DNA from: Sporomusa acidovorans | GTDB taxonomy: Bacteria; Bacillota; Negativicutes; Sporomusales; Sporomusaceae | Reading direction: 5' to 3' | DNA length: 64,000 nucleotides | Assembly (NCBI RefSeq): GCF_900101845.1 | Contig: NZ_FNAM01000003.1 | Span: forward strand, 1-64,000 | Part shown: piece by piece, positions 448-61,337 of the stretch | How the letters are laid out: each line of letters starts with the position of its first letter | How positions within the stretch are numbered: position 1 is the first letter of the stretch | Translations under genes and position numbers: made by a program | Notes under the pieces: model-generated | Told to the model about the DNA's origin: nothing | The model's database searches: none | Seen by the model: the letters and a program-made list of their open reading frames with translations, nothing else

Positions 448-490
448 TTCACCAAATATTCATAACTTCTTCATACGGAAAGAGTACAAT
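448..490 (+). promoter_or_regulatory. TTCATA-repeat promoter of the TPM gene
   Basis: Three hexamers, TTCACC (448), TTCATA (459) and TTCATA (470), are spaced exactly 11 bp. The -10 box TACAAT (485-490) begins 9 nt after the last hexamer. No -35 box is visible, which suggests an activator-dependent promoter. It lies 36 nt before the ATG at 526. Confidence 0.8.
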
Positions 491-525
491 TAGTCTAAAG
501 AGTTAGATAAAAGTAGGTGACTAGA

Positions 526-1275
526 ATGAAGAAGTTACTGGTTTGGCTCATACTTGTGATATCTTTGGCAGTGACTGCCGTAGCTTCAGCCCAGACGACA
601 ATACCGCCTGCACCGGTCAGCAGCCGGTATGTGCAGGATTATGCCGGTGTATTGTCTGATGAAACAAAAGTTAAGATCAATAAACTAGGCAGGAAAATAG
701 CAGAAAGTACTAAGGCGCAAGTGGTTGTTGTCACGGTGAATTCGTTAGAAGGTGTGCCGATTGAAGAGTATTCCCTCGGGATTCTCCGTAAGTGGGGGAT
801 TGGCGACAAGAACCAGAATAATGGTGTCCTACTACTGATTGCAGTAAATGACAAGCAGTCGCGAATTGAGGTTGGATATGGCTTGGAGGGAGTCCTTAAT
901 GACGCCAAGGCAGGTAGAATTTTGGATGAATCAGTACTGCCGTATTTTCAACAAGGTGACTACAATCGCGGCGTGTGGACAGGATACAAGGCGTTGGTCG
1001 GCACTATATCGGGGGAGTACGGTAAAGATGGACGCTCCAATGAAAAAAATAAAGCAGCCGATGCAAGCCTAGGTGTCGCTACTTGGTGGAACGGATTACC
1101 CGGATGGCTGCAAGTGATAGCTTTTGTTGGTTTGGCCGCACTGGTAGCAGGTGACTGGTTATTCTTCGGCGGCAGTATTACTTTACTCTTATTATCGTTG
1201 TTGCGTTTCCGTGGTGGTGGCGGCGGTTACGGAGGCGGGTCAGGCGGTGGCGGAGGCGCTGACCGCAAATGGTAG
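526..1275 (+). CDS. TPM-domain (YgcG-like) exported membrane protein with Gly-rich tail
   Basis: Predicted 249 aa. Residues 1-23 form a signal peptide ending near ASAQ. A TPM domain follows at about 35-150, with the motif YAGVLSDET, a central strand region VVVVTVNSLEG and GYGLEGVLNDAKAG. A hydrophobic segment lies at about 188-220, and the tail is nearly pure Gly followed by ADRKW. TPM proteins are envelope proteins, linked in some species to photosystem repair or to LemA; a LemA gene occurs at 8986 under the same promoter type. ATG 526 is preferred because AGGTG lies about 6 nt upstream; a GTG at 517 would overlap that site. Confidence 0.85.
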   Translation: MKKLLVWLILVISLAVTAVASAQTTIPPAPVSSRYVQDYAGVLSDETKVKINKLGRKIAESTKAQVVVVTVNSLEGVPIEEYSLGILRKWGIGDKNQNNGVLLLIAVNDKQSRIEVGYGLEGVLNDAKAGRILDESVLPYFQQGDYNRGVWTGYKALVGTISGEYGKDGRSNEKNKAADASLGVATWWNGLPGWLQVIAFVGLAALVAGDWLFFGGSITLLLLSLLRFRGGGGGYGGGSGGGGGADRKW

Positions 1276-1652
1276 GAATGACAAGGGCTGATAAGGTATT
1301 GGTTGTTTTAGTACTCCTGATAGCTATAGTCGGGATTGGGCTCAACATGTCCATAGTGGCTGCGGGTGGCGAGCAAAAAGCCGAAATATGGGTGGAGGGT
1401 ACCTTATATAAAACTGTGCCGCTCAAAGAGGGATATAAGCAAGAAATCCGGATTGGCGGCGACTCTCACTATGACATTATCGAGGTGCAGCACACCAGAA
1501 TTCGGGTGCGAGAAGCCGATTGTCCCAACCAGGACTGTATTAAGATGGGCTGGATCCAGCACGCACCGCAGCAAATTGTTTGTCTTCCTTATCGCATTGT
1601 CATCAAAATTGTGTCTTCGGCGCCAGTTGATACAGATACGATAGTTCGCTAG
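1269..1652 (+). CDS. NusG domain II-containing membrane-anchored protein
   Basis: Predicted 127 aa; the ATG overlaps the stop of the TPM gene, so the two are translationally coupled. One N-terminal membrane segment (about 6-30) is followed by a small beta-rich domain with the signature ADCPNQDCIKMGWI and QQIVCLPYRIVI. This is the stand-alone NusG_II family, found in many anaerobic Firmicutes and often near electron-transport or lipid genes. Its function is not established. A second ATG at 1278 could also be used. Confidence 0.85.
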   Translation: MVGMTRADKVLVVLVLLIAIVGIGLNMSIVAAGGEQKAEIWVEGTLYKTVPLKEGYKQEIRIGGDSHYDIIEVQHTRIRVREADCPNQDCIKMGWIQHAPQQIVCLPYRIVIKIVSSAPVDTDTIVR

Positions 1653-1658
1653 CAAAAA

Positions 1659-1697
1659 GTCCCCGTTACGTAAGCCGGCTGCTTAGGTGACGGGGGC
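1659..1697. terminator. Bidirectional terminator hairpin
   Basis: CCCCGTTACG pairs imperfectly with GTGACGGGG between two convergent genes, with T/A-rich flanks on both sides. Confidence 0.55.
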
Positions 1698-2330: not shown

Positions 2331-2343
2331 AGGGGTGAAAGAA

Positions 2344-4767
2344 TTGACTGAGTCCAATAAAGCATCTGTAGAAAATATGCTTTTAAAAGTAGAAGGCATG
2401 ACTTGTGCCGCCTGCGCCAGCAGGGTGGAACACGGGCTCTCCAAACTAAAAGGAGTAGAAAAGGCTGCTGTTAATCTTGCCACTGAGAAGGCTTCGGTGA
2501 CCTACGACCCGAAACAAATCAGCCTTAGCGAGGTAGTAAAAAAAATAGAGGATTTAGGCTATCAGGTTATTAAGGATAAAATCGATTTAAAGATAACCGG
2601 CATGACCTGCGCGGCCTGCTCGGGTCGGGTGGAAAGAGGCTTGAATAAGCTGCCCGGCGTTGTGAGCGCCGTTGTCAACCTGGCGGTGGAGAAGGCTACG
2701 GTGGAGTATTATCCGGGCGTAATCAGCTTTAACGATATTAAGGGTAAAATTGAAACCCTTGGTTATGGTGTGCATGATGTAGCAGATACCGCCGCGGTAG
2801 ACAAAGAAAAGAAGGCCCGTGAAGCAGAGGTTAGCAGGCAGCGCTTTCGCTTGCTGGTAGCTACCGTGTTTTCCCTGCCGCTGCTGCTGGCGATGGCCAT
2901 GCATATGTTGGGGGTAATGGGCAGGGCTACCGAGTTACTGATGAATCCGTATCTTCAGTTGGTACTGGCAACGCCTGTCCAATTTATCGCCGGCTGGCAG
3001 TTTTACCGGGGTGCCTATCTAGCGATTAAGAACGGCAGCGCGAACATGGATGTTCTGGTGGCACTGGGAACATCGGCTGCTTATTTTTATAGCATAGCTA
3101 ACGTACTTCGCCAGGCACCCGACTTATATTTTGAAACATCGGCTATTTTGATAACGCTCATCATTTTGGGTAAATTGCTGGAAGCTACTGCCAAGGGGCG
3201 GACCTCTGAGGCCATTAAGGCCCTTATGGGGCTGCAGGCCAAGACGGCCAGAGTGTTACGTGATGGACAGGAAAGCGACATTCCGGTCGAATCGGTCCTG
3301 GTCGGCGATGTTGTAATAGTGCGTCCAGGCGAAAAAGTTCCGGTCGATGGGGTTATTGTTGAAGGGACATCCACGCTGGATGAGTCGATGCTTACCGGGG
3401 AAAGTTTGCCTGTTGATAAAAAAGTTGGTGACCAGGTAGTTGGCGCAACTATTAATAAATTGGGAACATTTAAATTCAAGGCTACTAAAGTTGGCAAAGA
3501 TACCGCCTTGGCACAGATTGTACGTATTGTTGAAGAAGCCCAAGGGTCGAAAGCGCCAATTCAGCGTTTTGCCGATGTGGTATCAGCATATTTTGTACCG
3601 GTCGTCGTAGGCTTGTCGGTGCTAACCTTTGCAGTATGGTTCTTTTTCCTGGACCCAGGCAATTTCTCGCGGGCGTTGGTTAATTTTACTGCCGTATTAG
3701 TTATCGCATGTCCCTGCGCACTTGGTTTAGCTACGCCGACCTCAATTATGGTAGGGACAGGTAAAGGCGCGGAAAACGGAATATTAATAAAAGGCGCTGA
3801 GCACTTAGAGAATGCCCATAGACTGACAACCATTGTTCTTGATAAAACAGGCACAATTACCAAAGGTGAACCTGAAGTTACTGATATTGTGGCGCTGGCT
3901 GGGCTTGCAGAAGTTGAACTAGTGAGGCTGGCTGTCAGGGCAGAGAAAAACTCCGAGCATCCCTTGGCCCAGGCTATTGTTAACTATGGTAAAAAGCAAG
4001 GTATATCTCCGGAAGACCCTGAGTCTTTCACTGCCATTCCGGGGCATGGGGTCGAGGTTACCATTGAAGGTAAACGAATTTTACTGGGTACTCGCAAGCT
4101 AATGCATGAAAATAATATTGAGTTTGCAGCAGCTGTTCCTCAAATTGAAGAGTTGGAGCTGCAGGGCAAGACAGTCATGCTGTTTGCCTTGGAAGACAAG
4201 CTAAGTGGTTTGTTCGCTGTAGCTGATACCGTAAAAGAGAATTCGGCTCAAGCTGTATCCGAACTGCAAAAGATGGGCATAGAAGTATGGATGATAACAG
4301 GAGATAATATTCGTACTGCTCAGGCCATGGCTCAAACGGTTGGCATAGACAATGTTATGGCCGAGGTACTGCCAGAGAATAAAGCTGAAAAGGTAGCGGC
4401 ACTCAAAAAAGAGGGCAAGGTTGTGGCTATGGTCGGGGACGGCATTAACGATGCACCGGCGCTGGCTACCGCCGATGTGGGCTTTGCGATTGGTACAGGT
4501 ACCGATGTTGCTATTGAGGCTGCCGATATTACGCTAATGCGGGGTGACCTGACCGGCATTGTGGCTGCCATTCGCTTAAGTAAGGCAACTATGCGCAATA
4601 TTAAGCAGAATCTATTCTGGGCGCTTGTCTATAATTCGCTGGGCATTCCAGTTGCGGCAATGGGCTACTTATCGCCAGTATTAGCAGGGGCAGCTATGGC
4701 TTTTAGTTCGGTTTCAGTGGTAACAAACGCGCTGAGACTGAAAGGGTTCAACCCGTATAGGGATTAA
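2344..4767 (+). CDS. copA: Copper-exporting P1B-type ATPase
   Basis: About 807 aa. Two N-terminal heavy-metal-associated domains carry GMTCAACAS and GMTCAACSG. Then come the actuator motif MLTGES, the membrane metal site CPC in IACPCALG, the phosphorylation motif DKTGTIT, the EHPLA motif and [11 protein letters not shown] together with the two CxxC domains indicates Cu(I) export from the cytoplasm using ATP. TTG 2344 lies 8 nt after AAGGGG; GTG 2335 is an in-frame alternative overlapping that site, and ATG 2380 is a later one. Upstream lies a dead csoR and downstream a broken copZ, so its regulation is unclear; no TTCATA promoter is present. Confidence 0.93.
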
Positions 4768-6544: not shown

Positions 6545-6576
6545 TTCATAGGTTCTTCATAATGACTTGCTATAAT
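6545..6576 (+). promoter_or_regulatory. TTCATA-repeat promoter
   Basis: TTCATA at 6545 and 6556 (11-bp spacing), then a 9-nt gap and a perfect TATAAT at 6571. Drives the 6608 gene. Confidence 0.85.
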
Positions 6577-6984: not shown

Positions 6985-7027
6985 TTCATACTATCTTCAT
7001 AGGTTCTTCATAAAAAGTTGCTATGAT
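6985..7027 (+). promoter_or_regulatory. TTCATA-repeat promoter before the 7134-lgt operon
   Basis: Three perfect TTCATA hexamers at 6985, 6996 and 7007, a 9-nt gap, then TATGAT at 7022. Confidence 0.85.
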
Positions 7028-8860: not shown

Positions 8861-8903
8861 TTCATGGCTTCTTCAAAACTTCTTCATAATTATGGTGTAT
8901 ACT
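8861..8903 (+). promoter_or_regulatory. TTCATA-repeat promoter of lemA
   Basis: TTCATG (8861), TTCAAA (8872) and TTCATA (8883), each 11 bp apart; 9-nt gap; TATACT at 8898. Confidence 0.82.
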
Positions 8904-11800: not shown

Positions 11801-11854
11801 TACATAAGTTTTTCATAGATTCTTCAAAAGTTCTTCATATTAAAAGTGTATACT
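11801..11854 (+). promoter_or_regulatory. TTCATA-repeat promoter of two-component system 1
   Basis: TACATA (11801), TTCATA (11812), TTCAAA (11823) and TTCATA (11834) in 11-bp register; 9-nt gap; TATACT at 11849. If the encoded regulator binds here, the system is autoregulated. Confidence 0.83.
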
Positions 11855-11951: not shown

Positions 11952-12650
11952 ATGGCGCAAAATTCAGTGTTACTAGTGGACGATGATGCCAAATTGGTAA
12001 AATTGTTAAAAATATATTTTGAGAAGGATGGGTTTATTGCCTATACGGCGGCTGATGGCATTGATGCGTTAATGGCTGTGCGCGAACATCGGCCTGATAT
12101 TATGGTGCTTGACTTGATGATGCCTGGCATTGACGGCTGGGAAGTATGCCGGCGGCTGCGTAAAGATAATGATATTCCGATTATTATGCTTACTGCCCGG
12201 GATGAAGAAAGTGACCGGCTGGTGGGCCTGGAACTGGGCGCCGATGACTATGTGACTAAACCTTTTAGTTCCAAAGAGGTAGTGGCCCGTGCCAAGGCCA
12301 TATTGCGGCGTACCAATAGGGCCGTTTTACGCAAAGAGACCATTAAAATTGGTGGTTTGACAATTGACATGGATTCTTACCAGGTAAGCCGGGACGGCCA
12401 AGTGGTGGAGCTAACACCCACCGAATTTAAGATAGTAGAACTGCTGGCTACCAACCCGGGAAAGGTGTACAGCCGCCTTCAAATCGCCGAACAAGTTCAT
12501 GGTTACACGTTCGAGGGGTACGAACGGACCATTGATGCCCATATAAAAAACTTACGGCGCAAGCTGGAAGCTAACCCCAAAGAACCGCAGTATATCCAGA
12601 CCGTTTATGGGATGGGCTATAAATTAGCCGGGGTGGCCAAGGATGAATAG
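11952..12650 (+). CDS. OmpR/PhoP-family response regulator (system 1)
   Basis: Predicted 232 aa. The receiver domain (1-118) has the acidic pocket DDD at 10-12, phospho-acceptor D54 in LDLMMPG, and YVTKPF. A winged-helix DNA-binding domain follows (about 130-228) with VELTPTEFKIVELL, VYSRLQIAEQV and RTIDAHIKNLRRKLE. The ATG follows GAGGAGG. Its stop overlaps the kinase start by 8 nt. It is very similar to the regulator at 59435. OmpR-family dimers bind direct repeats spaced about 11 bp, so one or both paralogues are the best candidates to bind the TTCATA repeats. Confidence 0.95.
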   Translation: MAQNSVLLVDDDAKLVKLLKIYFEKDGFIAYTAADGIDALMAVREHRPDIMVLDLMMPGIDGWEVCRRLRKDNDIPIIMLTARDEESDRLVGLELGADDYVTKPFSSKEVVARAKAILRRTNRAVLRKETIKIGGLTIDMDSYQVSRDGQVVELTPTEFKIVELLATNPGKVYSRLQIAEQVHGYTFEGYERTIDAHIKNLRRKLEANPKEPQYIQTVYGMGYKLAGVAKDE

Positions 12651-13746
12651 CATTGTCTACCGGATTACCGGCCTCATGTTTTTATTTGTGGCCTTTACCG
12701 TGGTACTACTAATCTATCTTGCCGATTATCAGATGGATCAGCTCTTTCGGGAGTATTTGCTGGTTATGGGGCGCGGCGGCATGAGGCATCACATGGGGCA
12801 GGCTGAATTAACATTTTTAGCCTCTGTCCATAGGTCCCTAACTTGGGTAGGGGCCATACTCATTGTGCTAGGGTTAATGGCAAGCTATTCCTTAGCACGC
12901 AGTATCACCGTACCACTACGTAGACTTAGCCTAGCTGCCGAGGCTATTGAACAGGGGGATTTTGAGCAACGGGTACCGATTTCCTCAAAAGATGAGGTAG
13001 GACATCTGGCCAAAATTTTTAACCGGATGGCCAAAACGCTCGAAAATAACATGAAGTTAAGGCAGCAGCTATTGGCTAATATTGCCCATGAATTGAGGAC
13101 GCCAATTGCTATTATCAAGGGTCACCTGGAAGGCATGTTAGATGATGTGATTGACTTAAATAAAGAAGAAGTGGCGTCACTTCATGAGGAAACCATTCGG
13201 CTGAATCGCCTCATTACCGATCTCAAAGACTTGTCACTGGCTGAGGTTGGGCAGCTTTCCCTGGATAAGCAACCTACCAATATTAATTATCTCGTACGCC
13301 GGACTATTCAATTGATGAAAACAACGATTGACGAAAAGAAAATGGTTGTCCAGTGTAATTTAAATGATAAATTGCCTGAGATTCACGTCGACCCTGACCG
13401 GATTAGTCAGGTAATTAGCAATATTTTTGTTAACGCACTACGATATACCCCAGATAGGGGCAAAGTTTCGGCAACAACAGGATTAGAGAAAATGGAAGGT
13501 CGGCAGTGGGTAAAAATTGCTGTCAGTGATAACGGGCCAGGTATCGCGCCTGACGATATTCCCCACATCTTTGACCACTTTTACCGGGGCGAAAAATCCC
13601 GGGACCGCAAAAGCGGCGGTTCTGGGCTGGGATTAGCCATTGTGAAGCAATTGGTAGAATTCCACGGCGGTAAAGTCATGGTCGATAGTAGTCAAGGCGC
13701 GGGAACCACCTTTTTTGTATATTTACCCTATACTGTTGTAAGGTAA
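12643..13746 (+). CDS. HAMP histidine kinase with His/Met-bearing sensor loop (system 1)
   Basis: Predicted 367 aa. TM1 (about 8-27), a short extracytoplasmic loop of roughly 40 residues, TM2 (about 67-86), HAMP (about 83-135), HisKA with phospho-acceptor H149 in NIAHELRTP, and a HATPase with VFANAL-type N box (IFVNALRYT), DNGPGIAP, FDHFYRG and GGSGLGLAIVKQL. The loop contains MGRGGMRHHMGQAE, which suggests soft-metal sensing. It is co-transcribed with the overlapping regulator and is paralogous to the kinase at 60123. The ligand is inferred. Confidence 0.94.
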   Translation: MNSIVYRITGLMFLFVAFTVVLLIYLADYQMDQLFREYLLVMGRGGMRHHMGQAELTFLASVHRSLTWVGAILIVLGLMASYSLARSITVPLRRLSLAAEAIEQGDFEQRVPISSKDEVGHLAKIFNRMAKTLENNMKLRQQLLANIAHELRTPIAIIKGHLEGMLDDVIDLNKEEVASLHEETIRLNRLITDLKDLSLAEVGQLSLDKQPTNINYLVRRTIQLMKTTIDEKKMVVQCNLNDKLPEIHVDPDRISQVISNIFVNALRYTPDRGKVSATTGLEKMEGRQWVKIAVSDNGPGIAPDDIPHIFDHFYRGEKSRDRKSGGSGLGLAIVKQLVEFHGGKVMVDSSQGAGTTFFVYLPYTVVR

Positions 13747-13796: not shown

Positions 13797-13850
13797 TTCA
13801 TCAGATATTCATAATGTCTACATAAGAAATTCATATGAGTTTGCTATAGT
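13797..13850 (+). promoter_or_regulatory. TTCATA-repeat promoter of cytochrome operon A
   Basis: TTCATC (13797), TTCATA (13808), TACATA (13819) and TTCATA (13830) in 11-bp register; 9-nt gap; TATAGT at 13845. A leader of about 120 nt follows before the first ATG. Confidence 0.83.
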
Positions 13851-13976: not shown

Positions 13977-15011
13977 ATGCGATTTTTCAAGGTGGTACTA
14001 TCAGGTATTCTGGTACTGGCGATGGCTGGGGGCGGCGTATACTGGGCCCAGATGAATGGCTGGAATGTGTTCGATCTGCCCATGCTTACCGGCGGACACA
14101 GTCAGCACCAGGCGAGCGCACCTCAAGGCCACAGTGGCCATGGCGGGGGCAGCACTCAACCGCCACTCAGTCCTTTTAACAATCTGGCCAGCCAGAATAA
14201 GGACAAGCTGGTACAAGCTAGTGTGGTATTAAATCAAGTTATGGAGCAAATCACCAATGACCCGTATTCGCAGATTACGGTAGGCCGCCGCACTGACAGT
14301 GGGGAAGGCAGCGGCAATATCAGTATCACCCCCCGTGAAGGTGTGACAATTAATATTGCCGGTGAGAAGGAAAAAGGCCATGAGCTGCCTCCTGGCACTA
14401 CTGCCGTGTATGACCAGGCCAAATTAGAGCAACTGCACTATGGGATTTTTAAATTCTCGCAAGCCATTGCCTTGATTAATGATCTCAACAATGATTTGAC
14501 TGATCAGAGTGTGTTGGTGGAGGCCAATCCGCCAGACCTGCAAACCTATGTAATGCGGTACAACTTGCTATTACAAAACCGTACTAAGCTTAATCAAGCC
14601 ACAAGGCTGCTGGGCGAATCCATGACACTAGTTAACATCAACCCTTATGCACCGGCTAGCGGTTATGTGTACAATAGCCAGCGGATGAAGGAGCTTCATC
14701 AGGGTATCGCAGAGCTGGCTCGCATTTCGTTACAGCTAAACAGACTAAATGAGGATATGAACCAACAGCTGATGCAGGCCGCCTATGACGCCAAGCTTGC
14801 CCGTGTTCAGGCTATGAACCCGATGCAGGCTGCCGGCATGAACCAGGCCCAGAATCATAGCGCCCACAACGCCCAATCTGGAACTGACTTTTTTAGTAAC
14901 AGTTCAGGGGTATTTAGTCTTGGCTTAATTGTCATAATCTTTGGCCTGGTATTGGGAGTACTTGTCCTGATTAAAAAGCTGATCCGTGAATTGATTGCGC
15001 CACAAGAATAG
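13977..15011 (+). CDS. Operon A, gene 1: large exported protein anchored at both ends
   Basis: Predicted 344 aa. N-terminal membrane segment (about 3-25), a His/Gly linker (HSQHQ, HSGHGGG at about 42-60), a helical body with SPFNNLASQNKDKLVQA, ITNDPYSQIT, QLHYGIFKFSQA and NDLTDQSV, a Met/His stretch, and a C-terminal membrane segment (about 313-335). The blocks named are conserved in the paralogue at 25320, while the linkers differ. No known domain recognised. It leads a five-gene operon with a b-type cytochrome, so it may be the exposed part of a membrane complex (inference). Confidence 0.8.
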   Translation: MRFFKVVLSGILVLAMAGGGVYWAQMNGWNVFDLPMLTGGHSQHQASAPQGHSGHGGGSTQPPLSPFNNLASQNKDKLVQASVVLNQVMEQITNDPYSQITVGRRTDSGEGSGNISITPREGVTINIAGEKEKGHELPPGTTAVYDQAKLEQLHYGIFKFSQAIALINDLNNDLTDQSVLVEANPPDLQTYVMRYNLLLQNRTKLNQATRLLGESMTLVNINPYAPASGYVYNSQRMKELHQGIAELARISLQLNRLNEDMNQQLMQAAYDAKLARVQAMNPMQAAGMNQAQNHSAHNAQSGTDFFSNSSGVFSLGLIVIIFGLVLGVLVLIKKLIRELIAPQE

Positions 15012-15076
15012 ATTGGCGCTAGTGACGTCCGGGCAAAGATTGTTACTTGATAAGCATAAGAGATGGAGGGTTATGT

Positions 15077-15730
15077 ATGGGTGATGCATTAAAAAAAGAT
15101 CCAATTTTAAAGACAGTTCTCGTAGTATTTCTGGGCTTGATTGTGTTTAGTTTCCTCTTTGGCTTTAACTTTGGCGGAACCGGCTATGATGCAAGTGCCA
15201 GCCAGGCTAGCCAACACGCCAGTCACCATGGCGGGATGGGTGCCGGGGCAGCCGGTGGCCCAGGCTATATGACTGGGATAATACCTGGGCTAATTCAGTT
15301 CCTTATCCAAATACTCATGGTATTACTGGTGTTTGCGCTCATTGCCGGGATTGTTATCGGCGTGAAAAACTTTGTCGCTAAACAGGATTCAGAAGCATTA
15401 AAAAAGTATCCTGTTATCGAATATATCAACCAGGACCCTGTGCTTAAGGTGCTCGTCATTGCTATCGCCGGTATCTTCGGGCTGTATCTAGTAACCGGCC
15501 TGTTGAGTGGTATTGGTTTTGGCTCAGGGTATAACGTCTCGCCTCAGTTTATGATTCTCAATCTGATTAATTTCCTGGTAAAACTTCTCATGATTGCTTT
15601 TGTGGCTTTCGGCAGTTTGGCTCTCTGGCAGTACTTCAAGAATCAGGCTCCCGCTCAGCCGCCGAAACAAGAGATAATTCAATTGGAGGCGTCCCGTCCT
15701 GCTCACAAGGCAGGGAACGAGCCTGAATAA
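15077..15730 (+). CDS. Operon A, gene 2: four-TM membrane protein
   Basis: Predicted 217 aa from ATG 15077, which follows GGAGGG (an in-frame start at 15047 lacks one). Starts MGDALKKDPILKTVLVVFLG. Four hydrophobic segments at about 10-30, 73-100, 123-150 and 158-188. A Gly/His/Ser-rich loop (SQHASHHGGMG) follows TM1. Two repeats of a DPxLK/DPVLKV motif open TM1 and TM3, so the protein looks internally duplicated. Paralogue at 26386. Function unknown. Confidence 0.8.
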   Translation: MGDALKKDPILKTVLVVFLGLIVFSFLFGFNFGGTGYDASASQASQHASHHGGMGAGAAGGPGYMTGIIPGLIQFLIQILMVLLVFALIAGIVIGVKNFVAKQDSEALKKYPVIEYINQDPVLKVLVIAIAGIFGLYLVTGLLSGIGFGSGYNVSPQFMILNLINFLVKLLMIAFVAFGSLALWQYFKNQAPAQPPKQEIIQLEASRPAHKAGNEPE

Positions 15731-15758
15731 ATAGACTCATGGTTTACAGGTGGTTATT

Positions 15759-16544
15759 ATGAAGTTGAAATTGGAGTTTGTTTTGCACTGGCTGATGGCC
15801 ATAACCTTTTCCATACTGGCCATCAGCGGTCTGGCCATGGCTGGGGCCCGGTTTGGTTGGATTCTCAATTATGATATTGCGACCGCCGACATCGTTCACC
15901 GGGTCACAGCCGTTATCTATGTAATCGTTACTTTGGCTTCTATTGGGCAAGAGGTTATGCGGGTATTGCGGTCAGACAGCAAAAAGGATTTGCCATGGTC
16001 AATTTTTGGGCGCAGCGGATACGGCTTTTTTACCCTTGTTACAACGCTGCTGTTTATCCTTACCGGGGTAATACTCTGGAAAAGCCATCATAGCAATATG
16101 GCAGCCGTCGCTTTTGCCATGTTTGTTCATGAGAACCTTACATATATTGTCCTAGCCAGCCTTGTCTGGCATATGTATCAAAAGGCGCATGGATTGTTGT
16201 GGCCGAAACAGGCAGTGGCCAATAATCTGATGACTCAGCGCTGGTTTAAGCTAGTTGTTTGGTTCATTACATCGTCATTTTTCTTTGCCGTAGCTGCCAT
16301 TATGGTATCCTTTGCCGGACCGCCGCCAGGTGGGCAGCAGATAAAGGCCTATATGGCCGGAATGATGCAGGCGATGGACAAATCGCTGATGGGACTAGCA
16401 AATATGGAGCCAGGGTTAACGGTTGCCGGACAGGTGACAGGCGTGCTCCCCATGTCGGCATCCATGCTGGTAATCCTTTTGATTCTAGCGTTTTTGCTGG
16501 CAATTGGCTTCTTGTGGGAGGGGCAGCAGAAAAATGAACGCTAA
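15759..16544 (+). CDS. Operon A, gene 3: b-type cytochrome-like membrane protein (cytochrome b561/DUF4405 type)
   Basis: About 261 aa; ATG 15759 lies 5 nt after AGGTGG. Around six membrane segments. Histidines at residues 10 (VLHWLMA), 47 (DIVHRVT), 110-111 (WKSHHSN), 124 (FVHENL), 138 (LVWHMYQ) and 144 are all kept at the same positions in the paralogue at 27079. The pattern resembles di-haem b-type electron carriers of the FdnI/b561 superfamily. It could pass electrons across the membrane for a partner encoded in the same operon. The C-terminal 100 residues (AYMAGMMQAMDKSLMG) are Met-rich and not known to me. Confidence 0.75.
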   Translation: MKLKLEFVLHWLMAITFSILAISGLAMAGARFGWILNYDIATADIVHRVTAVIYVIVTLASIGQEVMRVLRSDSKKDLPWSIFGRSGYGFFTLVTTLLFILTGVILWKSHHSNMAAVAFAMFVHENLTYIVLASLVWHMYQKAHGLLWPKQAVANNLMTQRWFKLVVWFITSSFFFAVAAIMVSFAGPPPGGQQIKAYMAGMMQAMDKSLMGLANMEPGLTVAGQVTGVLPMSASMLVILLILAFLLAIGFLWEGQQKNER

Positions 16545-16875
16545 AAAACATTTTTGGCAACTGGCTTTTGGTTTTTTATTGCTAGTAGTGCTAGCGCTGA
16601 TGAGTGCCTGGAATGAGCAACGAACTCAAGCCGGGATGATGGCGCAAATGATGGGGGGAAGCATGGGGGATATGATGCGTATGATGCATGCATCCAATAT
16701 TACCTTAGCCGATCTCTTAACCTGGAAAAGCGAGGTGGGAATGACCCAGGGAGCAAAACAGGCAGGTTCATTCTTAATGTGGGTACATACAGTTACAACA
16801 AACACCATCTTTTTGTTAGTTCCGGTAATTTTGGCCGGCACAGTATTTTTACTGATTGTCTGGCAGTTGAGGTGA
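16534..16875 (+). CDS. Operon A, gene 4: small two-TM protein with Met/His cluster
   Basis: Predicted 113 aa; the ATG overlaps the preceding stop by 11 nt. TM segments at about 7-25 and 88-110. Between them is SMGDMMRMMHASNIT, identical in the paralogue at 27839 and extremely rich in Met with one His. This invariance, while the rest drifts, suggests a metal or haem ligand site. Function unknown. Confidence 0.78.
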   Translation: MNAKKHFWQLAFGFLLLVVLALMSAWNEQRTQAGMMAQMMGGSMGDMMRMMHASNITLADLLTWKSEVGMTQGAKQAGSFLMWVHTVTTNTIFLLVPVILAGTVFLLIVWQLR

Positions 16876-16879
16876 AGGA

Positions 16880-17497
16880 ATGGGCTCTTTAGGTTTTTTG
16901 GGCTCGGTGTACATGTTCTTTTTACTAGCCCTCTTAGTTGTTGCCTTAGGGGCTGGGGCCAGCTACATTATCCAAACAGTGACCGGAGCAGTTGGCCAGA
17001 TGGCTGCTGCGCCAGCCGGTACCACGGTAAAATCAAAACAACTATTTGGAGGAGGAAACAATATTATGGAAAACAATCAATGGCTTAGGTATGCTCTATA
17101 CTCCTTTTTAGGAATTCTACTGCTCTTGGTTATCGGTGGGCTTGTCGCACCTAACCAGGCTATGTACGGCTACGGCCAGTATGGCCAAATGCCGATGGGT
17201 AACATGAACATGGGCCAAATGCCGATGGGTAACATGAACATGGGCCAAATGCCGATGGGTAACATGAACATGGGCCAAATGCCAATGGGCAACATGAACA
17301 TGGGTCAAATGCCAATGGGCAACATGAACATGGGCCAAATGCCGATGGGTAACATGAACATGGGCCAAATGCCGATGGGCAACATGAACATGGGCCAAAT
17401 GCCGATGGGCAACATGAACATGGGCCAGATGCCGATGGGCAATATGAACATGGGCCAAATGCAAGGTGGCGGCGGTATGGGTATGATGGGTATGTAA
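16880..17497 (+). CDS. Operon A, gene 5: membrane-anchored Met-rich decapeptide-repeat protein
   Basis: Predicted 205 aa. Two membrane segments (about 8-35 and 70-92) precede nine tandem copies of QMPMGNMNMG and a Gly/Met tail. MxM and MxxM patterns of this kind bind Cu(I)/Ag(I) in copper-resistance proteins; the function here is inferred. An in-frame ATG at 17066, 8 nt after GGAGGAGG, would make a 143-aa form with one membrane segment (start MENNQWLRYALYSF). The paralogue at 28198 has the same second start, and the relative at 23042 starts at the equivalent point. Confidence 0.85.
   Translation: MGSLGFLGSVYMFFLLALLVVALGAGASYIIQTVTGAVGQMAAAPAGTTVKSKQLFGGGNNIMENNQWLRYALYSFLGILLLLVIGGLVAPNQAMYGYGQYGQMPMGNMNMGQMPMGNMNMGQMPMGNMNMGQMPMGNMNMGQMPMGNMNMGQMPMGNMNMGQMPMGNMNMGQMPMGNMNMGQMPMGNMNMGQMQGGGGMGMMGM
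17066..17068 (+). promoter_or_regulatory. Internal translation start with strong ribosome site
   Basis: GGAGGAGG at 17048-17055 precedes an in-frame ATG within the 16880 gene. The arrangement is conserved in operon B (AGGGAGG 28361, ATG 28378), which argues for two protein forms from one gene. Confidence 0.65.
17186..17455 (+). repeat. Nine tandem 30-bp repeats (Met-rich array)
   Basis: Each unit encodes QMPMGNMNMG; units differ only at a few third positions. Near-identical units form the 14-copy array at 23177-23596. It lies in frame within the 16880 gene. Confidence 0.95.
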
Positions 17498-17587: not shown

Positions 17588-17619
17588 TTCACAGGATATT
17601 CACAATTGTTTGCTATAAT
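17588..17619 (+). promoter_or_regulatory. TTCATA-repeat promoter
   Basis: TTCACA at 17588 and 17599; 9-nt gap; TATAAT at 17614. Precedes the SHOCT gene at 17718. Confidence 0.78.
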
Positions 17620-17717: not shown

Positions 17718-18011
17718 ATGGGTTATGGCATGATGAATTATGCAGGACAGGGCTATGGTTACGGGTACGGTTCTTCACTATTTGGCGGCTTATTCCATGG
17801 TGTATTTAGCCTGCTCTTTTGGGTATTGCTCTTGGCGGGACTGTACTTTCTAGTGCGATGGCTAATGGAAACAGTTTCCGGCAAATCTGCCTGTTTGCTT
17901 TCGGCAGCACCTGATGCAACTGGTTCCGCGATCGAGATACTTAAGCAGCGTTATGCTCGTGGCGAAATCAACCGTGAAGAATTTGAACGTATCAAACAGG
18001 ACTTGGCTTAG
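17718..18011 (+). CDS. SHOCT-domain small membrane protein
   Basis: Predicted 97 aa after AAGGAGGCG. A Gly/Tyr-rich N-terminus (GYGMMNYAGQGYGYGYG) is followed by one membrane segment (about 30-52) and a C-terminal SHOCT motif (AIEILKQRYARGEINREEFERI). SHOCT is a short helical motif thought to serve in oligomerisation. It is one of four SHOCT proteins in this block (also 22307, 22704 and 23668). The specific role is unknown. Confidence 0.88.
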   Translation: MGYGMMNYAGQGYGYGYGSSLFGGLFHGVFSLLFWVLLLAGLYFLVRWLMETVSGKSACLLSAAPDATGSAIEILKQRYARGEINREEFERIKQDLA

Positions 18012-18491: not shown

Positions 18492-18523
18492 TTCATAAGT
18501 TCTTCATAATGAGCTGCTATAAT
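18492..18523 (+). promoter_or_regulatory. TTCATA-repeat promoter
   Basis: TTCATA at 18492 and 18503; 9-nt gap; TATAAT at 18518. Precedes the lipoprotein gene at 18570. Confidence 0.85.
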
Positions 18524-35008: not shown

Positions 35009-35026
35009 AAGGAGTTGTGGAATATA

Positions 35027-44856: not shown

Positions 44857-44899
44857 ATTATAGCTGCATCGTATGAATTTATAATGAATAGCCTGTGAA
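44857..44899 (-). promoter_or_regulatory. TTCATA-repeat promoter (minus strand)
   Basis: Read on the minus strand: TTCACA, TTCATT and TTCATA at 11-bp spacing, 9-nt gap, TATAAT (44862-44857). Drives the 44254-44805 gene. Confidence 0.85.
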
Positions 44900-45640: not shown

Positions 45641-45683
45641 ATTATAACGAACTATTGTGAAGTTATCATGAATAACCCGTGAA
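45641..45683 (-). promoter_or_regulatory. TTCATA-repeat promoter (minus strand)
   Basis: Minus strand: TTCACG, TTCATG and TTCACA at 11-bp spacing, 9-nt gap, TATAAT (45646-45641). Drives the 45046-45591 gene. Confidence 0.82.
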
Positions 45684-45718: not shown

Positions 45719-45783
45719 TTCATAAAAATAGCATAATTTCTTCATAGGAAATTCATGGGATATTCATAATAACTTGGTATTAT
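45719..45783 (+). promoter_or_regulatory. TTCATA-repeat promoter of the SLH porin
   Basis: TTCATA (45719), AGCATA (45730), TTCATA (45741), TTCATG (45752) and TTCATA (45763) in 11-bp register; 9-nt gap; TATTAT at 45778. A leader of about 200 nt follows, including a hairpin around CAAGTCT/AGACTTG. Confidence 0.83.
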
Positions 45784-52848: not shown

Positions 52849-52902
52849 TTCATTAGAACTCCATATTTCCTTCACGAGAATCGCACAATGTCTTGGTATA
52901 GT
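52849..52902 (+). promoter_or_regulatory. TTCATA-repeat promoter (degenerate)
   Basis: TTCATT (52849), TCCATA (52860), TTCACG (52871) and CGCACA (52882) in 11-bp register; 9-nt gap; TATAGT at 52897. Its first hexamer overlaps the 5' region of the divergent YIEGIA gene. Confidence 0.65.
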
Positions 52903-54538: not shown

Positions 54539-54570
54539 TTCATAAATAATTCACATTCGTTTGCTATACT
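54539..54570 (+). promoter_or_regulatory. TTCATA-repeat promoter of the selenoprotein gene
   Basis: TTCATA (54539) and TTCACA (54550); 9-nt gap; TATACT at 54565. Confidence 0.82.
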
Positions 54571-54595: not shown

Positions 54596-54904
54596 GTGAA
54601 TAAAATAAATATCATTATTGAGCCTGATGCCCTTAATTATATAATGAAAAATAATAAGGATAAGGCCATCACCGTTACCGTTGCCAAACGACCAGGCAGT
54701 GTCTGAAAGGGCGGCCGCGAGGCGCAGCTCCCGTCCGTGCGACTGGGAATTGATCAGGGGAAGGTTCAAAGCTATCCAAAGGTTGTAGTAGATGGTATAG
54801 ACGTGTACTACGTTGACAGTGTGGCAACGAGCTTTAAAACTGTTAGAGTAAAAGTAGAAAAGCTGTTGTTTTTTAAAAAGCTAGTTGCTGTCAGTGAAAG
54901 ATAG
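54596..54904 (+). CDS. CC/Se-motif family selenoprotein (in-frame TGA read as Sec)
   Basis: The frame continues across an in-frame TGA at 54704: KRPGSV-U-KGGREAQLPSVRLG, then VVVDGIDVYYVDSVA to the TAG at 54902. About 102 residues. The layout (short beta domain, Sec or Cys followed by KGG/GG, P-S-V-R-L-G, then VDGIDVYY) fits the small CC/Se-motif (seleno)protein family of anaerobes. GTG 54596 overlaps the ribosome site GGGAGG; a rare ATA at 54605 (giving INIIIEPDALNYI) lies at better spacing, so the true start is uncertain. A SECIS-like hairpin should follow the TGA; the G/C-rich stretch GGGCGGCCGCGAGGCGCAGC is a candidate. Confidence 0.7.
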
Positions 54905-55368: not shown

Positions 55369-55411
55369 GTCATAGCAAGTTCATAAGTTCTTCATATTTT
55401 TATGATAAACT
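55369..55411 (+). promoter_or_regulatory. TTCATA-repeat promoter of the multicopper oxidase
   Basis: GTCATA (55369), TTCATA (55380) and TTCATA (55391) in 11-bp register; 9-nt gap; TAAACT at 55406. Confidence 0.78.
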
Positions 55412-55475: not shown

Positions 55476-56897
55476 ATGGTATCTAAAAAATCGGTTGCGC
55501 TCAGTCTGCTGGCAGCATCTGCCGCCATTGCTTTTTTCTTCAGCACCTTTACAGGCCAGGCCGCCAACATCAAGTTGGATATGAAAGAGGTTAACTGGGA
55601 GATCAAGCCGGGATTGACTACTAAGGTTTGGAGTTATGGCGGGACTGTACCGGGAACGCCCATTATCGTAAAAAAAGGTGAGACAGTCAACGTTTCCGGT
55701 GTGAATAATTTGCCTTCAACAACAACCATTCACTGGCACGGCCTGGTGATACCAAACGACCAGGATGGCCCGGGAAAAACCATCAAACCGGGTGAAAAGT
55801 ACGCCTACTCCTTTACAGTCAACGAATCCGGTACCTATTGGTATCATTCTCACTACCGCCCGGTGCTTGACCAGGTTGACAATGGACTATATGCGCCGAT
55901 TATCGTCAAGGCTCCGGAAGATGATAAGTACAGCGGCGATCATATCTATGTCTTAGATGACTGGTACCTTGACGCAAACGGCAATCGCCTCCAAGGAACA
56001 GCCAGAGGCGACATGGAGCGGTTCGGTAATATCGAGACAGTAAACGGCAAATCAGGTTCAGCGATAGAACCATTAGTCATGAAGAAAGGCGAACTTCACA
56101 AGCTGCGGTTTATTAACGCGTCAACCGCTGCCGTTCACACCATTAAAATAGCAGGTCACCGCTTCCGCGTTACCCATACGGATGGACATCCTCTGCCCCA
56201 GCCATACGAGACTGACGTACTGACCTTATCGCCTGGCGAGCGCCTTGATGCTGAAGTGGCAGCAGTCGGTGATGCAGGGCAATCCTATACAATGGAAAGC
56301 GAGCGCAGTGAACTAGGGATTAAAATTCCCATACAATACCAACAAGGGCAAGTCGCCATGGTAGCATCACCTTTTGTCGCGCCCCAAGCGAAAGGGTTTG
56401 CCGGCATTGAAAACCGCACCCCTGACTTTTCGCTTGACTTAAATTCAGTGATGGATATGCCGTCTCATGGTACCAAGCCTGCGCCTGCCGCACCGGCGGG
56501 CGGGCATGCCGGACATGGAGTACCGGCTCCAAGTATAACCAATGAGATGCAGATGCAGGGCGGCATGCGTTGGACCATTAACGGCAAATCGTATCCTGAT
56601 GTTCCTGCATTGCAGGTCAAGCTTGGACAAATTGTAAAGGTTCGGATTGTCAACAACGACATCAGCACAGCCGAGAAAATGGATCACCCCATCCACATTC
56701 ACGGCACTGAATTCCAGATTGTATCTCAAAACGGCAAAGCTCCCGAACGGGAAATATGGAAAGATACCGTTAATGTACCAGCTGGCGAGTATGTAGATAT
56801 TGCCTTTACGATGACTAACCCTGGCACCTGGATGCTTCACTGCCACATTCTCGATCACGAAGATGGCGGCATGATGACTACTGTTGTAGCTAAATAG
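55476..56897 (+). CDS. Three-domain multicopper oxidase (exported)
   Basis: Predicted 473 aa. Signal peptide 1-29 (ending GQAAN). Copper motifs in order: HWHGLV, WYHSHYR, HPIHIHGTEF and HCHILDHEDGGMM; the last holds the type 1 copper His-Cys-His and an axial Met (DGGMM). A Met/His-rich insert (MDMPSHGTK, GGHAGHG, NEMQMQGGM at about 325-365) recalls CueO/CopA-type copper-resistance oxidases. It probably oxidises Cu(I) or phenols outside the cytoplasmic membrane, and would need some oxygen. Carries a TTCATA promoter, which supports a metal-stress role of the regulon. Confidence 0.94.
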   Translation: MVSKKSVALSLLAASAAIAFFFSTFTGQAANIKLDMKEVNWEIKPGLTTKVWSYGGTVPGTPIIVKKGETVNVSGVNNLPSTTTIHWHGLVIPNDQDGPGKTIKPGEKYAYSFTVNESGTYWYHSHYRPVLDQVDNGLYAPIIVKAPEDDKYSGDHIYVLDDWYLDANGNRLQGTARGDMERFGNIETVNGKSGSAIEPLVMKKGELHKLRFINASTAAVHTIKIAGHRFRVTHTDGHPLPQPYETDVLTLSPGERLDAEVAAVGDAGQSYTMESERSELGIKIPIQYQQGQVAMVASPFVAPQAKGFAGIENRTPDFSLDLNSVMDMPSHGTKPAPAAPAGGHAGHGVPAPSITNEMQMQGGMRWTINGKSYPDVPALQVKLGQIVKVRIVNNDISTAEKMDHPIHIHGTEFQIVSQNGKAPEREIWKDTVNVPAGEYVDIAFTMTNPGTWMLHCHILDHEDGGMMTTVVAK

Positions 56898-57005: not shown

Positions 57006-57059
57006 CTCATAATATCTTCATACCATATTCATAAGATCTTCATATTTAATTTGTATAAT
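57006..57059 (+). promoter_or_regulatory. TTCATA-repeat promoter of rseC-like gene
   Basis: CTCATA (57006) and TTCATA at 57017, 57028 and 57039 in 11-bp register; 9-nt gap; TATAAT at 57054. One of the best matches to the consensus. Confidence 0.88.
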
Positions 57060-59371: not shown

Positions 59372-59373
59372 AT

Positions 59374-59407
59374 AAAGACTGGCGTCTGTATCGGGCGCCA
59401 GTCTTTG
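59374..59407 (+). terminator. Rho-independent terminator
   Basis: AAAGACTGGCG pairs with CGCCAGTCTTT. The next gene starts 28 nt later, so some read-through into the two-component system is possible. Confidence 0.8.
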
Positions 59408-59434
59408 CTAAAGGATACTACTGGAGGGAAGAAC

Positions 59435-60130
59435 ATGACACAAAGGTCGGTTTTAATTGTTGATGATGATGTAAAGTTGGTAGAGTTGCTAGAATTGTAT
59501 TTTCAGAAAGATGGGTTTATCGTATATACTGCCAATGATGGTCTGGCTGCTTTGAAAACAGCCCGGGACAAACAACCCGATATCCTGGTGCTTGACTTAA
59601 TGTTGCCAGGGATGGATGGCTGGGATATCTGCAGGACGCTCAGGCGGGACAGCGAGGTGCCTATCTTAATGCTGACTGCCAGGGATGAAGAGAGTGACAG
59701 ATTAGTCGGCCTGGAAATTGGCGCCGATGATTATGTGACGAAACCCTTTAGCCCTAAAGAAGTGGTGGCCCGCGCCAAAGCTATCTTACGCCGGACAAAG
59801 CGGGCAACGGTGAAAACTGAACCGGTTCGAATGGGCGATGTAGTCATTGACCTGGGACAATATCAGGTAACAAAAGGCGGACAGCCTGTTGAGCTCACGC
59901 CGACCGAGTTTAAGATACTGGAACTGTTGGCGGCGAACCCGGGTAGAGTATTTAGCCGGCTGCAAATCGTCGAGCAGATCCAGGGCTATTCCTTCGAAGG
60001 CTATGAACGCACTGTTGACGCGCATGTCAAGAATCTGCGACGTAAGATTGAGGATAATCCCAAAGAGCCGGTATACATCCAAACCGTTTACGGTGTAGGT
60101 TACCGTATGGCAGGTAGCCAAAATGAATAG
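59435..60130 (+). CDS. OmpR/PhoP-family response regulator (system 2)
   Basis: About 231 aa from ATG 59435 after GGAGGG. Receiver pocket DDD 10-12 and D54 in VLDLMLPG, YVTKPF, then a winged-helix domain with VELTPTEFKILELL, VFSRLQIVEQI and RTVDAHVKNLRRKIE. Very similar to the regulator at 11952, including near-identical recognition-helix residues (YERTI/VDAHI/VKNLRRK), so both may bind the same TTCATA repeats. Overlaps the kinase by 8 nt, as in system 1. It has no TTCATA promoter of its own that I can find. Confidence 0.95.
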   Translation: MTQRSVLIVDDDVKLVELLELYFQKDGFIVYTANDGLAALKTARDKQPDILVLDLMLPGMDGWDICRTLRRDSEVPILMLTARDEESDRLVGLEIGADDYVTKPFSPKEVVARAKAILRRTKRATVKTEPVRMGDVVIDLGQYQVTKGGQPVELTPTEFKILELLAANPGRVFSRLQIVEQIQGYSFEGYERTVDAHVKNLRRKIEDNPKEPVYIQTVYGVGYRMAGSQNE

Positions 60131-61337
60131 CATTATCTATCGGATTACAGGCCTCATGTTCCTGGCGGTAGCCATAACCGTATTTTTACTTATCTATTTG
60201 GCTAACTCGCAAATGACCGATTTGTTCCAGGAGTATGTTACCGTTCAGCACATGGAGATGCACCGCAGTATGATGACTCACATGAACCCTGGCGGTCATG
60301 GGCAGGCTGTCATGATGGGGATACCAGAACAAAACTTCCTAACATCAGTACATCAATCACTTATTTGGGTTGGCGTAGCCCTATTAGTAGCCGGGTTGGC
60401 GGCAAGCTATGCCTTGGCCCGCAGTATTACCATACCTTTGCGAAAAGTAAGCGCCGCTGCTCTGGAGATTGAGCGGGGTAATTTTGCTCAGAAAGTACCC
60501 GTAACCTCCAAGGATGAAGTCGGAAGCCTTGCCCTGATATTTAACAGCATGGCGGAAACGCTGGATAATAACAATAAGCTCAGGCAGCAGTTTCTCGCCA
60601 ACATAGCCCATGAACTCAGAACACCGCTTGCTGTTATCCAAGGCCACCTGGAGGGAATGATTGATGGCATCATTGAGCCTAACCAAAAACAGTTAACTTC
60701 CCTCCACGAAGAGGCTGTCCGCTTATCGCGCCTAATCAAAGACTTGAAGGACTTGTCGCTTGCCGAAGTGCGCCAACTGTCATTAGAGGTCAAAGAGGTT
60801 GCCGTCAATCAGACAATTGAGCAGGCCTTGTATATGCTAAAACCTCTTGCTGACGAAAAAGAGATCATAATAAAGCAAAACTTGACCCAAGAACTGCCCC
60901 CCATTACGGCTGATGCGGATAGAATATGCCAGATTTTCTATAACCTTATTACTAACGCTATTCGCTATACTGCGACCGGTGGGGAGGTAACTGTTTCCAC
61001 TGAACTAACAACGCTAGAAGAGCAGGACTGGGTAAAGGTTACTGTTGCCGATAATGGGCCAGGTATTAACGCTTTTGATTTACCTTATATCTTTGACCAT
61101 TTTTACCGGGGCGATAAGTCGCGGGATAGAAAAAGTGGGGGTACAGGCCTTGGTCTGGCTATCGTTAAGCAACTTGCAGAGATTCACGGTGGTAAAGTAC
61201 AGGTAGAGAGCACAGTAGGCAAGGGTAGCTCTTTCTATGTTATGTTACCGGCAAAAGTTCACGAAAATACCATAATATCTTCATCAGTTCTTCACAGTGA
61301 TCGTGTATTATATACCTATCAAGACAAAGCGAACTAA
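60123..61337 (+). CDS. HAMP histidine kinase with a strongly Met/His-rich sensor loop (system 2)
   Basis: Predicted 404 aa. TM1 (about 8-27), an extracytoplasmic loop of about 50 residues with VQHMEMHRSMMTHMNPGGHG followed by AVMMG (His 43, 47, 53, 59; Met 44, 46, 50, 51, 54, 64, 65), TM2 (about 80-98), HAMP, HisKA with H163 in NIAHELRTP, and HATPase with DNGPGIN, FDHFYRGDKSRDRKSGG and GTGLGLAIVKQL. The loop is a good candidate for Cu(I)/Ag(I) sensing. Its last 25 codons also carry a TTCATA promoter (61280-61311). Confidence 0.94.
   Translation: MNSIIYRITGLMFLAVAITVFLLIYLANSQMTDLFQEYVTVQHMEMHRSMMTHMNPGGHGQAVMMGIPEQNFLTSVHQSLIWVGVALLVAGLAASYALARSITIPLRKVSAAALEIERGNFAQKVPVTSKDEVGSLALIFNSMAETLDNNNKLRQQFLANIAHELRTPLAVIQGHLEGMIDGIIEPNQKQLTSLHEEAVRLSRLIKDLKDLSLAEVRQLSLEVKEVAVNQTIEQALYMLKPLADEKEIIIKQNLTQELPPITADADRICQIFYNLITNAIRYTATGGEVTVSTELTTLEEQDWVKVTVADNGPGINAFDLPYIFDHFYRGDKSRDRKSGGTGLGLAIVKQLAEIHGGKVQVESTVGKGSSFYVMLPAKVHENTIISSSVLHSDRVLYTYQDKAN
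61280..61311 (+). promoter_or_regulatory. TTCATA-repeat promoter inside the kinase coding region
   Basis: TTCATC (61280) and TTCACA (61291); 9-nt gap; TATTAT at 61306. It lies in the last codons of the kinase and would drive the tiny gene at 61361. Confidence 0.75.

Follow-up and report, generated by a model that had tools for sequence, protein, structure and literature searches.

Direct repeats with an 11-bp period, placed beside a -10 box without a -35 element, are a usual promoter design for response regulators of the OmpR/PhoB type, and promoters of the PhoB, PhoP (Bacillus subtilis) and MtrA kind carry repeats of this type near the -10. Here we describe sites with the same layout in the acetogen Sporomusa acidovorans. 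In the first 64 kb of its contig C20 (207,755 bp), hereafter called the window, 26 sites were found in which hexamers close to TTCATA precede a -10 box at a fixed distance. We interpret them as promoters of class II that serve a single regulator group in a two-component regulon of the copper/silver type, a reading to which we assign a probability of roughly 0.73. The sites, their geometry and conservation, their association with the regulator group and the gene content behind them were computed from the genomes.

Several described systems resemble this regulon in part. The half-site of the heme regulator HssR, GTTCATATT-N2 with an 11-bp period, contains TTCATA, and the likeness to the Sporomusa sites concerns this half-site. 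The CusR box of Escherichia coli is a dyad, unlike the Sporomusa direct repeats, which occur at tens of promoters. The wider CusRS-CusCBA system is similar in that CusS reads periplasmic metal through Met and His residues, which are required in combination for copper sensing according to the available part of the report (PMC10100754), and in that the Sporomusa contig also encodes a CusA-type pump with three Met ligands together with a TolC-type outer-membrane partner and an adaptor. It differs in that the Sporomusa response regulators and histidine kinases both fail the heavy-metal models for these proteins, and in the kinase loop, which has roughly 15-33 residues versus about 150 in CusS. CopRS of Corynebacterium glutamicum, likewise a copper two-component system, uses an 11-bp-period direct repeat, TGAAGATTTnnTGAAGATTT, and has a multicopper oxidase and a Cu-ATPase as targets; its half-site is a different one, and the available part of the report places CopR at a single intergenic region (PMC3140484), compared with 43 strong sites on C20. 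For the silver/copper regulator AgrR of Cupriavidus metallidurans, the accessible sections describe a probable type II activator of the OmpR family with several operators and positive autoregulation (PMC7380067), although its operator is an inverted 6-4-6 repeat, ATKACA-N4-TGTMAT. A direct repeat is also reported at the target promoter of HssR in Staphylococcus aureus and Bacillus anthracis, as far as the available text goes (PMC3968170), but this is a Gram-positive heme system that drives HrtAB.

Geometry and conservation of the sites

A sequence-only reading of the window had listed 26 sites and claimed a fixed gap and a missing -35 for all of them. When each coordinate was read directly, all 26 were present, with hexamers near TTCATA at an 11-bp period. 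TANNNT stands exactly 9 nt past the last hexamer in 26/26 sites, and a TTGACA-like hexamer (at most two mismatches, spacer 15-19) occurs in just four of them, so that both claims held. The sites thus have the layout of class II sigma-70 promoters, in which an activator site abuts the -10 without a consensus -35. An alignment anchored on their final two hexamers gives the 32-bp core TTCATA-RGWTM-TTCATA-N9-TANNNT, in which most hexamer bases are near invariant. Two features were absent from that reading: the five-base spacer between the hexamers is also conserved (consensus RGWTM), and the N9 stretch ends in three bases that resemble the TGN of an extended -10, with TG in 17/26 sites and the G alone in 20/26.

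A matrix scan recovered exactly the 26 known sites in the window (>11 bits, one match per 40 bp). All of them precede an open reading frame (ORF); for 23, the distance to a called start is at most 215 nt. The ORFs behind the remaining three are small (17718-18011, 54605-54904 and 61361-61456) and were missed by our home-made gene caller, which misses small genes and some starts. The site at 22630 overlaps a mis-called TTG start, for which reading by hand gave 22704 as the likely ATG, and the site at 52849, whose last hexamer CGCACA is poor, was re-registered to a core at 52871-52902.

We then compared this geometry with neighbouring ones, counting hexamer pairs with at most one mismatch each plus TANNNT for periods of 8-15 and gaps of 4-14. 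Period 11 with gap 9 gave 47 matches on the contig, and every other combination gave 0-6. This is the independent test, because 26 of the C20 sites scored by the matrix had also served to train it; with this matrix, 44 matches on C20 exceeded 18 bits, versus a mean of 0.0 in 15 order-2 Markov simulations, and 43 sites remained when one match was kept per 40 bp. In the whole genome (6.0 Mb, 126 contigs), the pattern at up to one mismatch was found 51 times, overlapping registers included, with 41 matches on C20 and 1 for the reversed control; the motif is therefore not equally common at random. Across the order Sporomusales, 62 exact matches in 18/28 genomes compare with 0 for the control. Based on these geometry, genome-wide, Markov and order-wide controls, we rejected chance or low-complexity AT-rich repeats as the source of the pattern, an explanation of negligible probability. 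A class-wide exact scan gave matches in 44/150 genomes, 15 of those from the order, and 7 control matches in the 150 genomes; S. acidovorans was the richest of the genomes sampled with 14 exact matches, followed by two genomes with 9 each. Judging from the control, isolated exact matches beyond the order probably stem in part from chance or coding repeats, and they were left out of the evidence for this reason. An RNA-element explanation was dropped because Rfam gave no match in the window at gathering scores.

The same geometry bears on the direction of control. A regulator could repress from these sites by blocking the polymerase beside the -10, with copper relieving the block, and the last hexamer, only 9 nt from the -10, does lie inside the polymerase footprint. 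However, the promoters would need an activator, because 22/26 sites have no -35, and the sites are placed as in class II activation, for example by AgrR, as described in the available part of PMC7380067. We therefore consider repression highly unlikely.

Sites and genes are conserved together. An ortholog in Sporomusa malonica was found for 32 of 38 C20 site-gene pairs, and 29 of these 32 have an upstream site, mostly at a similar distance. The comparison started from the proteins, was made within the fetched S. malonica stretches and counts pairs (three genes occur twice), and C20 paralogues often share one S. malonica match; 5 of the 43 C20 sites have no called start within 450 nt. Among the other genes of the clusters, 60/77 have an S. 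malonica ortholog, with a site within 450 bp in 7 of the 60: four second genes of site-led units, one regulator and two matches of 31% identity to another oxidase. In the aligned S. malonica sites, hexamers and TA..T are 97% identical versus 57% upstream and 74% downstream, but these identities are biased because both partners were required to have a site, and the comparison that started from the proteins is the fairer one. Further afield, 50 stretches from the order, chosen for holding pattern matches or group regulators, contained 187 sites above 18 bits, of which 159 have a called start between -30 and 300 nt downstream (median 49 nt).

Beyond the window, a second site cluster lies at 115-152 kb of C20; many of its genes are similar to those of the window, and it carries further copies of the regulator-kinase pairs RR1-HK1 and RR2-HK2 described below. 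Two S. malonica contigs hold 27 sites over 80 kb and 8 over 30 kb (>18 bits). On our reading, a small regulon shared across the order has grown into two clusters in both species.

A response regulator group as the likely reader

The proposed activator RR1 (11952-12650, plus strand) is an OmpR/PhoB-type response regulator with receiver and winged helix, and RR2 (59435-60130, plus strand) is its 70% identical paralogue; the Pfam domains Response_reg and Trans_reg_C were found in both. The four C20 paralogues share invariant D10, D11, D54, T81 and K103, and thus the phospho-acceptor Asp and the conserved Lys, given the functional roles that we take these receiver residues to have. RR1 is 66-88% identical to the three others, and the C-terminal stretch, in which we presume the recognition helix to lie, is almost identical in all four. 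A fifth copy is found elsewhere in the genome (G000:C86:11915-13095), behind a site-led gene similar to that of the DUF2680 protein at 6608 in the window; this is possibly the ancestral locus.

In a search for related loci, the closest regulator was that of S. malonica DSM 5090 (97%), followed by those of Pelosinus, S. ovata, S. silvacetica and others. The group is separated from other regulators of the genus by a clear gap (380-484 bits versus at most 255 bits for the next ones). It has five members in S. acidovorans, four in S. malonica and one in each of the other seven Sporomusa genomes, and a member is present in 25/28 genomes of the order (E <= 1e-78).

With a threshold of 16 bits, 31/41 group members have a site in the 2 kb upstream, compared with 0/23 OmpR-type regulators of the genus outside the group; in the 300 bp upstream, the counts are 21 and 0. 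These 23 controls come from a total of 28 OmpR-type regulators outside the group, and one of them has only 189 bp of upstream DNA. Likewise, 12 of the 14 closest regulator loci (L055-L068) have a site, compared with 0/61 more distant ones, where the best match reached 14.8 bits. These 14 overlap the 41 group members, L131-L134 are not included, L104 was dropped for its short upstream DNA, and several of the compared loci have less than 2 kb upstream. From the two comparisons, 31/41 versus 0/23 and 12/14 versus 0/61, it follows that the motif belongs to this regulator group and not to OmpR-type regulators in general. The sequence-only reading had proposed that one regulator controls most exported and membrane genes of the window. 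One OmpR/PhoB-type group is indeed the likely reader of the sites, as judged from the sequences, but the proposal was overstated, since site-led units contain 29 of the 55 window genes called with a hydrophobic segment, about half.

Alternatively, a different, unlinked transcription factor might read the sites, and their linkage to the regulator group would then merely reflect a shared gene neighbourhood. This would account for the 10/41 group members without a nearby site. Against it, the association is also seen at scattered loci outside the two clusters and is absent from the 23 control regulators and the 61 distant relatives, and many OmpR-family regulators bind direct repeats, according to the sections of PMC7380067 available. 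We regard an unlinked factor as very improbable. Three of the 10 site-less members (RR2, RR2' and an S. malonica counterpart) are probably late genes of a site-led run; in the window, RR2 is found downstream of an RseC-like and a chemoreceptor gene behind site 25. Both regulator-kinase pairs of the window look autoregulated, one directly by the site at 11801 and the other by the site at 57006 via this gene run, in which a 126-nt gap follows the first gene.

RR1 scored below the curated equivalog cutoffs of MtrA (240.3 versus 300), PhoB (233.7 versus 296.2), BaeR (235.4 versus 380) and YycF (230.5 versus 340), which sets it apart from the PhoB- and MtrA-type systems in spite of the similar repeats. 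Because curated cutoffs were not reached, an assignment to CusRS, PhoB, MtrA or BaeR was rejected.

Kinase loops, copper-related targets and the signal

The histidine kinases HK1 (12643-13746) and HK2 (60123-61337), both on the plus strand, have a very short, Met/His-rich loop between two apparent membrane helices (MGRGGMRHHMGQ and, in HK2, HMEMHRSMMTHMNPGGHGQAVMM). At least three Met or His residues were found in the parsed loop of 29/36 group kinases, with a median of 25% Met plus His; 36 kinases were usable for the 41 group members (four had none, one was dropped as out-of-frame). The control kinases (n = 11, recovered for 11 of the 23 control regulators and mostly of one orthologous family) had a median of 0 Met/His in residues 31-90. 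As the parser shortens loops, four of the seven group kinases with fewer than three Met/His were parsed too short and are rich in them by eye. Together with the Met and His residues needed by CusS, these loops make Cu(I)/Ag(I) the most likely signal; the kinases probably respond to the periplasmic ions.

Apart from the regulator itself, the site-led family found in the largest number of genomes is a TolC-type outer-membrane protein. It was recounted separately because single-linkage clustering, which merged unrelated families, had joined TolC with a small Cys/Met protein. The recount gave 12 matches in 11 genomes beyond that of S. acidovorans (S. malonica G001 twice, G002, G003, G004, G007, G010, G013, G017, G019, G020 and G023). 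An adaptor and a resistance-nodulation-division (RND) pump follow in 11 of the 12 stretches, the pump being 78-93% identical to the C20 pump; the G013 stretch ends at the TolC gene, and the pump of G023 is cut by the end of its stretch. S. ovata has a site-led TolC-adaptor-RND operon at locus L041. In S. acidovorans the TolC gene starts 431 nt past a site on C20, outside the window. The C20 pump (C20:123532-126717) passes the CusA/CzcA model TIGR00914 with 1164.8 bits (cutoff 701.45) and, when aligned to 3t51_A, has Met at all three CusA positions M573, M623 and M672, which we take to be the metal-site ligands.

Copper-related genes are also found in the window. A multicopper oxidase (55476-56897, plus strand) is a direct target of site 24, and a Cu-type P-ATPase (2335-4767, plus strand; TIGR01511, 641 bits, cutoff 397) is encoded near the start. 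A CopA ATPase and a CsoR/RicR-like repressor lie nearby. Two repetitive Met-rich membrane proteins, (MGQMPMGNMN)n at 16880-17497 and (MGQMPVGNMN)n at 23042-23644, both on the plus strand, are encoded further down site-led units, the former by the final gene of the site 6 operon and the latter by the second gene after site 15. Three further Met-rich targets, at 6608, 20049 and 37275, directly follow a site. Overall, Met makes up 5.0% of the first genes behind sites compared with 3.0% in other genes (p = 4e-10). The sequence-only reading had missed this link to metals, visible in the Met/His-rich loops of the kinases, the CusA-like pump, the multicopper oxidase and the Met-rich cargo, and had overlooked both the second paralogous cluster and the order-wide conservation.

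Heme regulation by an HssR relative, our first idea in view of the half-site, was set aside in favour of copper or silver, to which the gene content and the loops of the kinases point. A Pfam scan of 50 window ORFs gave no ABC transporter.

The regulon could also be a general envelope-stress regulon, BaeRS-like in function, with metal defence as one part and a kinase that reads envelope damage instead of metal. The models closest to regulator and kinase include BaeR and BaeS (all below cutoff), Lgt, LemA and SLH (S-layer homology) genes occur in site-led units, and 29/32 genes of the site-led window units have a hydrophobic segment. Nevertheless, the kinase loop between the two helices is very short and Met/His-rich in most members, no target other than the regulator is shared as widely as the TolC-adaptor-CusA-type operon, and the C20 pump keeps the CusA methionines. 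An envelope-stress regulon of this kind thus seems unlikely to us.

A number of observations weigh against the copper/silver reading. The heavy-metal models are not reached, neither by the regulators (TIGR01387, 180.2 and 179.4 bits, cutoff 279.2) nor by the kinases (TIGR01386, 180.4 and 188.2 bits, cutoff 292.55), and three group kinases (G013, G025a and G027) have loops truly poor in Met/His. In addition to the 10 group regulators without a site within 2 kb upstream, neither of the two C20 Cu-ATPases (2335 and 117643) stands directly behind a site. For many targets (Lgt, LemA, TPM, SLH), we know of no role in copper handling. His is not enriched in the targets (p = 0.94), and at least 8% Met was found in only 27/159 first genes (35/754 others).

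For the copper/silver regulon we propose the following mechanism, in which DNA binding, activation and a metal as inducer are what we infer. The tiny Met/His-rich periplasmic loop of the kinase would bind Cu(I) (or Ag(I)), and the metal-bound kinase would phosphorylate its OmpR/PhoB-type partner. The phosphorylated regulator would occupy two to five TTCATA half-sites in a head-to-tail arrangement, with each half-site following the previous one after about one helical turn, and from this class II position would recruit sigma-70 RNA polymerase to the extended -10; the array would occupy the place where a -35 would be contacted, which would fit the missing -35. The number of hexamers may tune affinity. 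The output would be periplasmic metal defence and envelope remodelling, through the CusCBA-like efflux operon on C20 outside the window and, within it, the multicopper oxidase, Met-rich proteins, a selenoprotein-family ORF and envelope factors. The Met-rich proteins may serve as metal sponges, and both regulator-kinase pairs would be among their own targets, resulting in positive feedback.

Genes behind the sites, contig context and meaning

Unless stated otherwise, the following sites and genes are on the plus strand. Site 1 (448-490) precedes a TPM-domain protein at 526 and a NusG_II-domain protein at 1269, and the S. malonica ortholog keeps the site. Site 2 (6545-6576) stands before the Met/His-rich DUF2680 protein at 6608, site 3 (6985-7027) before a 46-aa protein at 7134, an Lgt-like protein at 7294 and an ICMT/PEMT-like protein at 8119, site 4 (8861-8903) before a LemA-family protein at 8986 and site 5 (11801-11854) before RR1, as expected for putative autoregulation. 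LemA, DUF2231 and SLH proteins are direct targets in the window, and Lgt and VTT proteins are encoded by second genes.

Site 6 (13797-13850) leads a five-gene Met-rich/cytochrome b561-like operon (13977-17497); the best S. malonica match (55% identity) has no site. The operon is present three times (window 13977-17497 and 25320-28974; C20:137529-141209) and encodes, in this order, a conserved unknown protein, which gave no Pfam match in the two window copies, a small membrane protein, a cytochrome b561-like protein, a 117-aa-type protein and a Met-rich protein. It might encode a membrane complex that handles copper or electrons.

Downstream, site 7 (17588-17619) precedes a 97-aa membrane ORF (17718-18011), site 8 (18492-18523) a lipoprotein-like protein at 18570, whose best S. 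malonica match (46% identity) lacks a site, and site 9 (19129-19171) a 60-aa exported protein at 19240. Sites 10 (19493-19524, 215 nt before the start) and 11 (19652-19683) stand in tandem before a 63-aa protein at 19739. Site 12 (19948-20001) precedes the Met-rich membrane protein at 20049, for which the fetched S. malonica regions hold no ortholog, site 13 (20606-20648) a DUF2231 protein at 20756 and site 14 (22154-22207) a 69-aa protein at 22307. A SHOCT-domain protein (likely ATG 22704) and the Met-rich pentapeptide-type protein at 23042 follow site 15 (22630-22661), and site 16 (24823-24865) stands before a 61-aa exported protein at 24923, with an S. malonica homologue of 39% identity.

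The Met-rich membrane protein at 37275 lies behind site 17 (37162-37215), and a repeat-containing exported protein at 39905 behind site 18 (39832-39874). Sites 19 (44857-44899) and 20 (45641-45683), both on the minus strand, precede exported proteins at 44805-44254 and 45591-45046, respectively. Site 21 (45719-45783), with five hexamers, stands before an SLH-domain envelope protein at 45987. The weakest site, site 22 (52849-52902, 22.8 bits), precedes 52943 and a VTT-domain protein at 53230 and is kept in S. malonica.

Site 23 (54539-54570) is followed by the UGA-containing ORF 54605-54904. Read with UGA as selenocysteine (Sec), it passes the CC/Se motif (seleno)protein model NF041239 with 44 bits (cutoff 40); its start resembles ATA, and the S. 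malonica counterpart starts with M. The genome has a tRNA-Sec model match of 73.9 bits, and the same Rfam model passes its cutoff in 5/14 control genomes. Site 24 (55369-55411) precedes the multicopper oxidase at 55476. Behind site 25 (57006-57059) are the RseC-like gene at 57075 and, after the gap, the methyl-accepting chemotaxis protein (MCP) gene at 57653, RR2 at 59435 and HK2 at 60123, and site 26 (61280-61311) overlaps the 3' end of HK2 and precedes a 31-aa single-helix membrane peptide (61361-61456), to which a site-led small ORF in S. malonica is similar. Two further groups of genes were observed in the window: a multicopper-oxidase gene at 36088-36985 that is split or shorter than its paralogue at C20:143853-144737, and three YetF/DUF421 membrane protein genes close together at 33356-36019, which are not directly site-led.

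The rest of the contig contains Tn7-like TnsA, TnsC/TniB-like and TnsD/TniQ genes (C20:95635-102057 and 153070-155502; L010, L013), the second TniB-like/TniQ pair being located just past the second cluster. Topoisomerase, ParA-like and VirB4/TraG-like genes are found at C20:70892-72877, 85783-87719 and 177483-179885. The contig may be a plasmid or an integrative element. A more far-reaching scenario, which we consider doubtful, is a dedicated copper island: an ancestral Cus-like two-component regulon would have taken over two paralogous clusters in some Sporomusa, wiring tens of separate promoters, so that a Met-rich envelope stores or electronically uses Cu(I) instead of only exporting it, and Tn7-like and conjugative genes would possibly have spread it. 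In the same speculative scenario, the repeat proteins, the b561-like membrane operon, the multicopper oxidase and a selenoprotein would be the envelope parts of this island.

The individual parts of the regulon are of known kinds; unusual is its scale, with 43 strong sites on one contig in two paralogous clusters. Among the matches listed, titles and abstract openings of the literature on the motif and on copper regulation in Sporomusa, Pelosinus and Negativicutes held no description of such a regulon. Within these searches, the regulator subfamily, its motif, the link to a Cus-like pump in the order and the crowding of over 40 promoters into a single contig appear to be undescribed. Of the earlier view that a regulon of this density and fixed geometry had not been described, the part on density seems to stand, but the geometry is a common design of the regulator family.

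Taken together, TTCATAAGWTM repeats followed by 9 nt and an extended -10 provide a readable promoter code for an extensive regulon, apparently not described so far, in acetogens, organisms that are used in electrosynthesis, as stated for S. ovata, for example, in the available part of PMC9253864. From the code follow predictions of a signal, a sensor and dozens of targets; many of these targets are small proteins, and no family was found for them. The regulon is further a naturally occurring example of how local two-component control can extend to over 40 promoters within a single contig.

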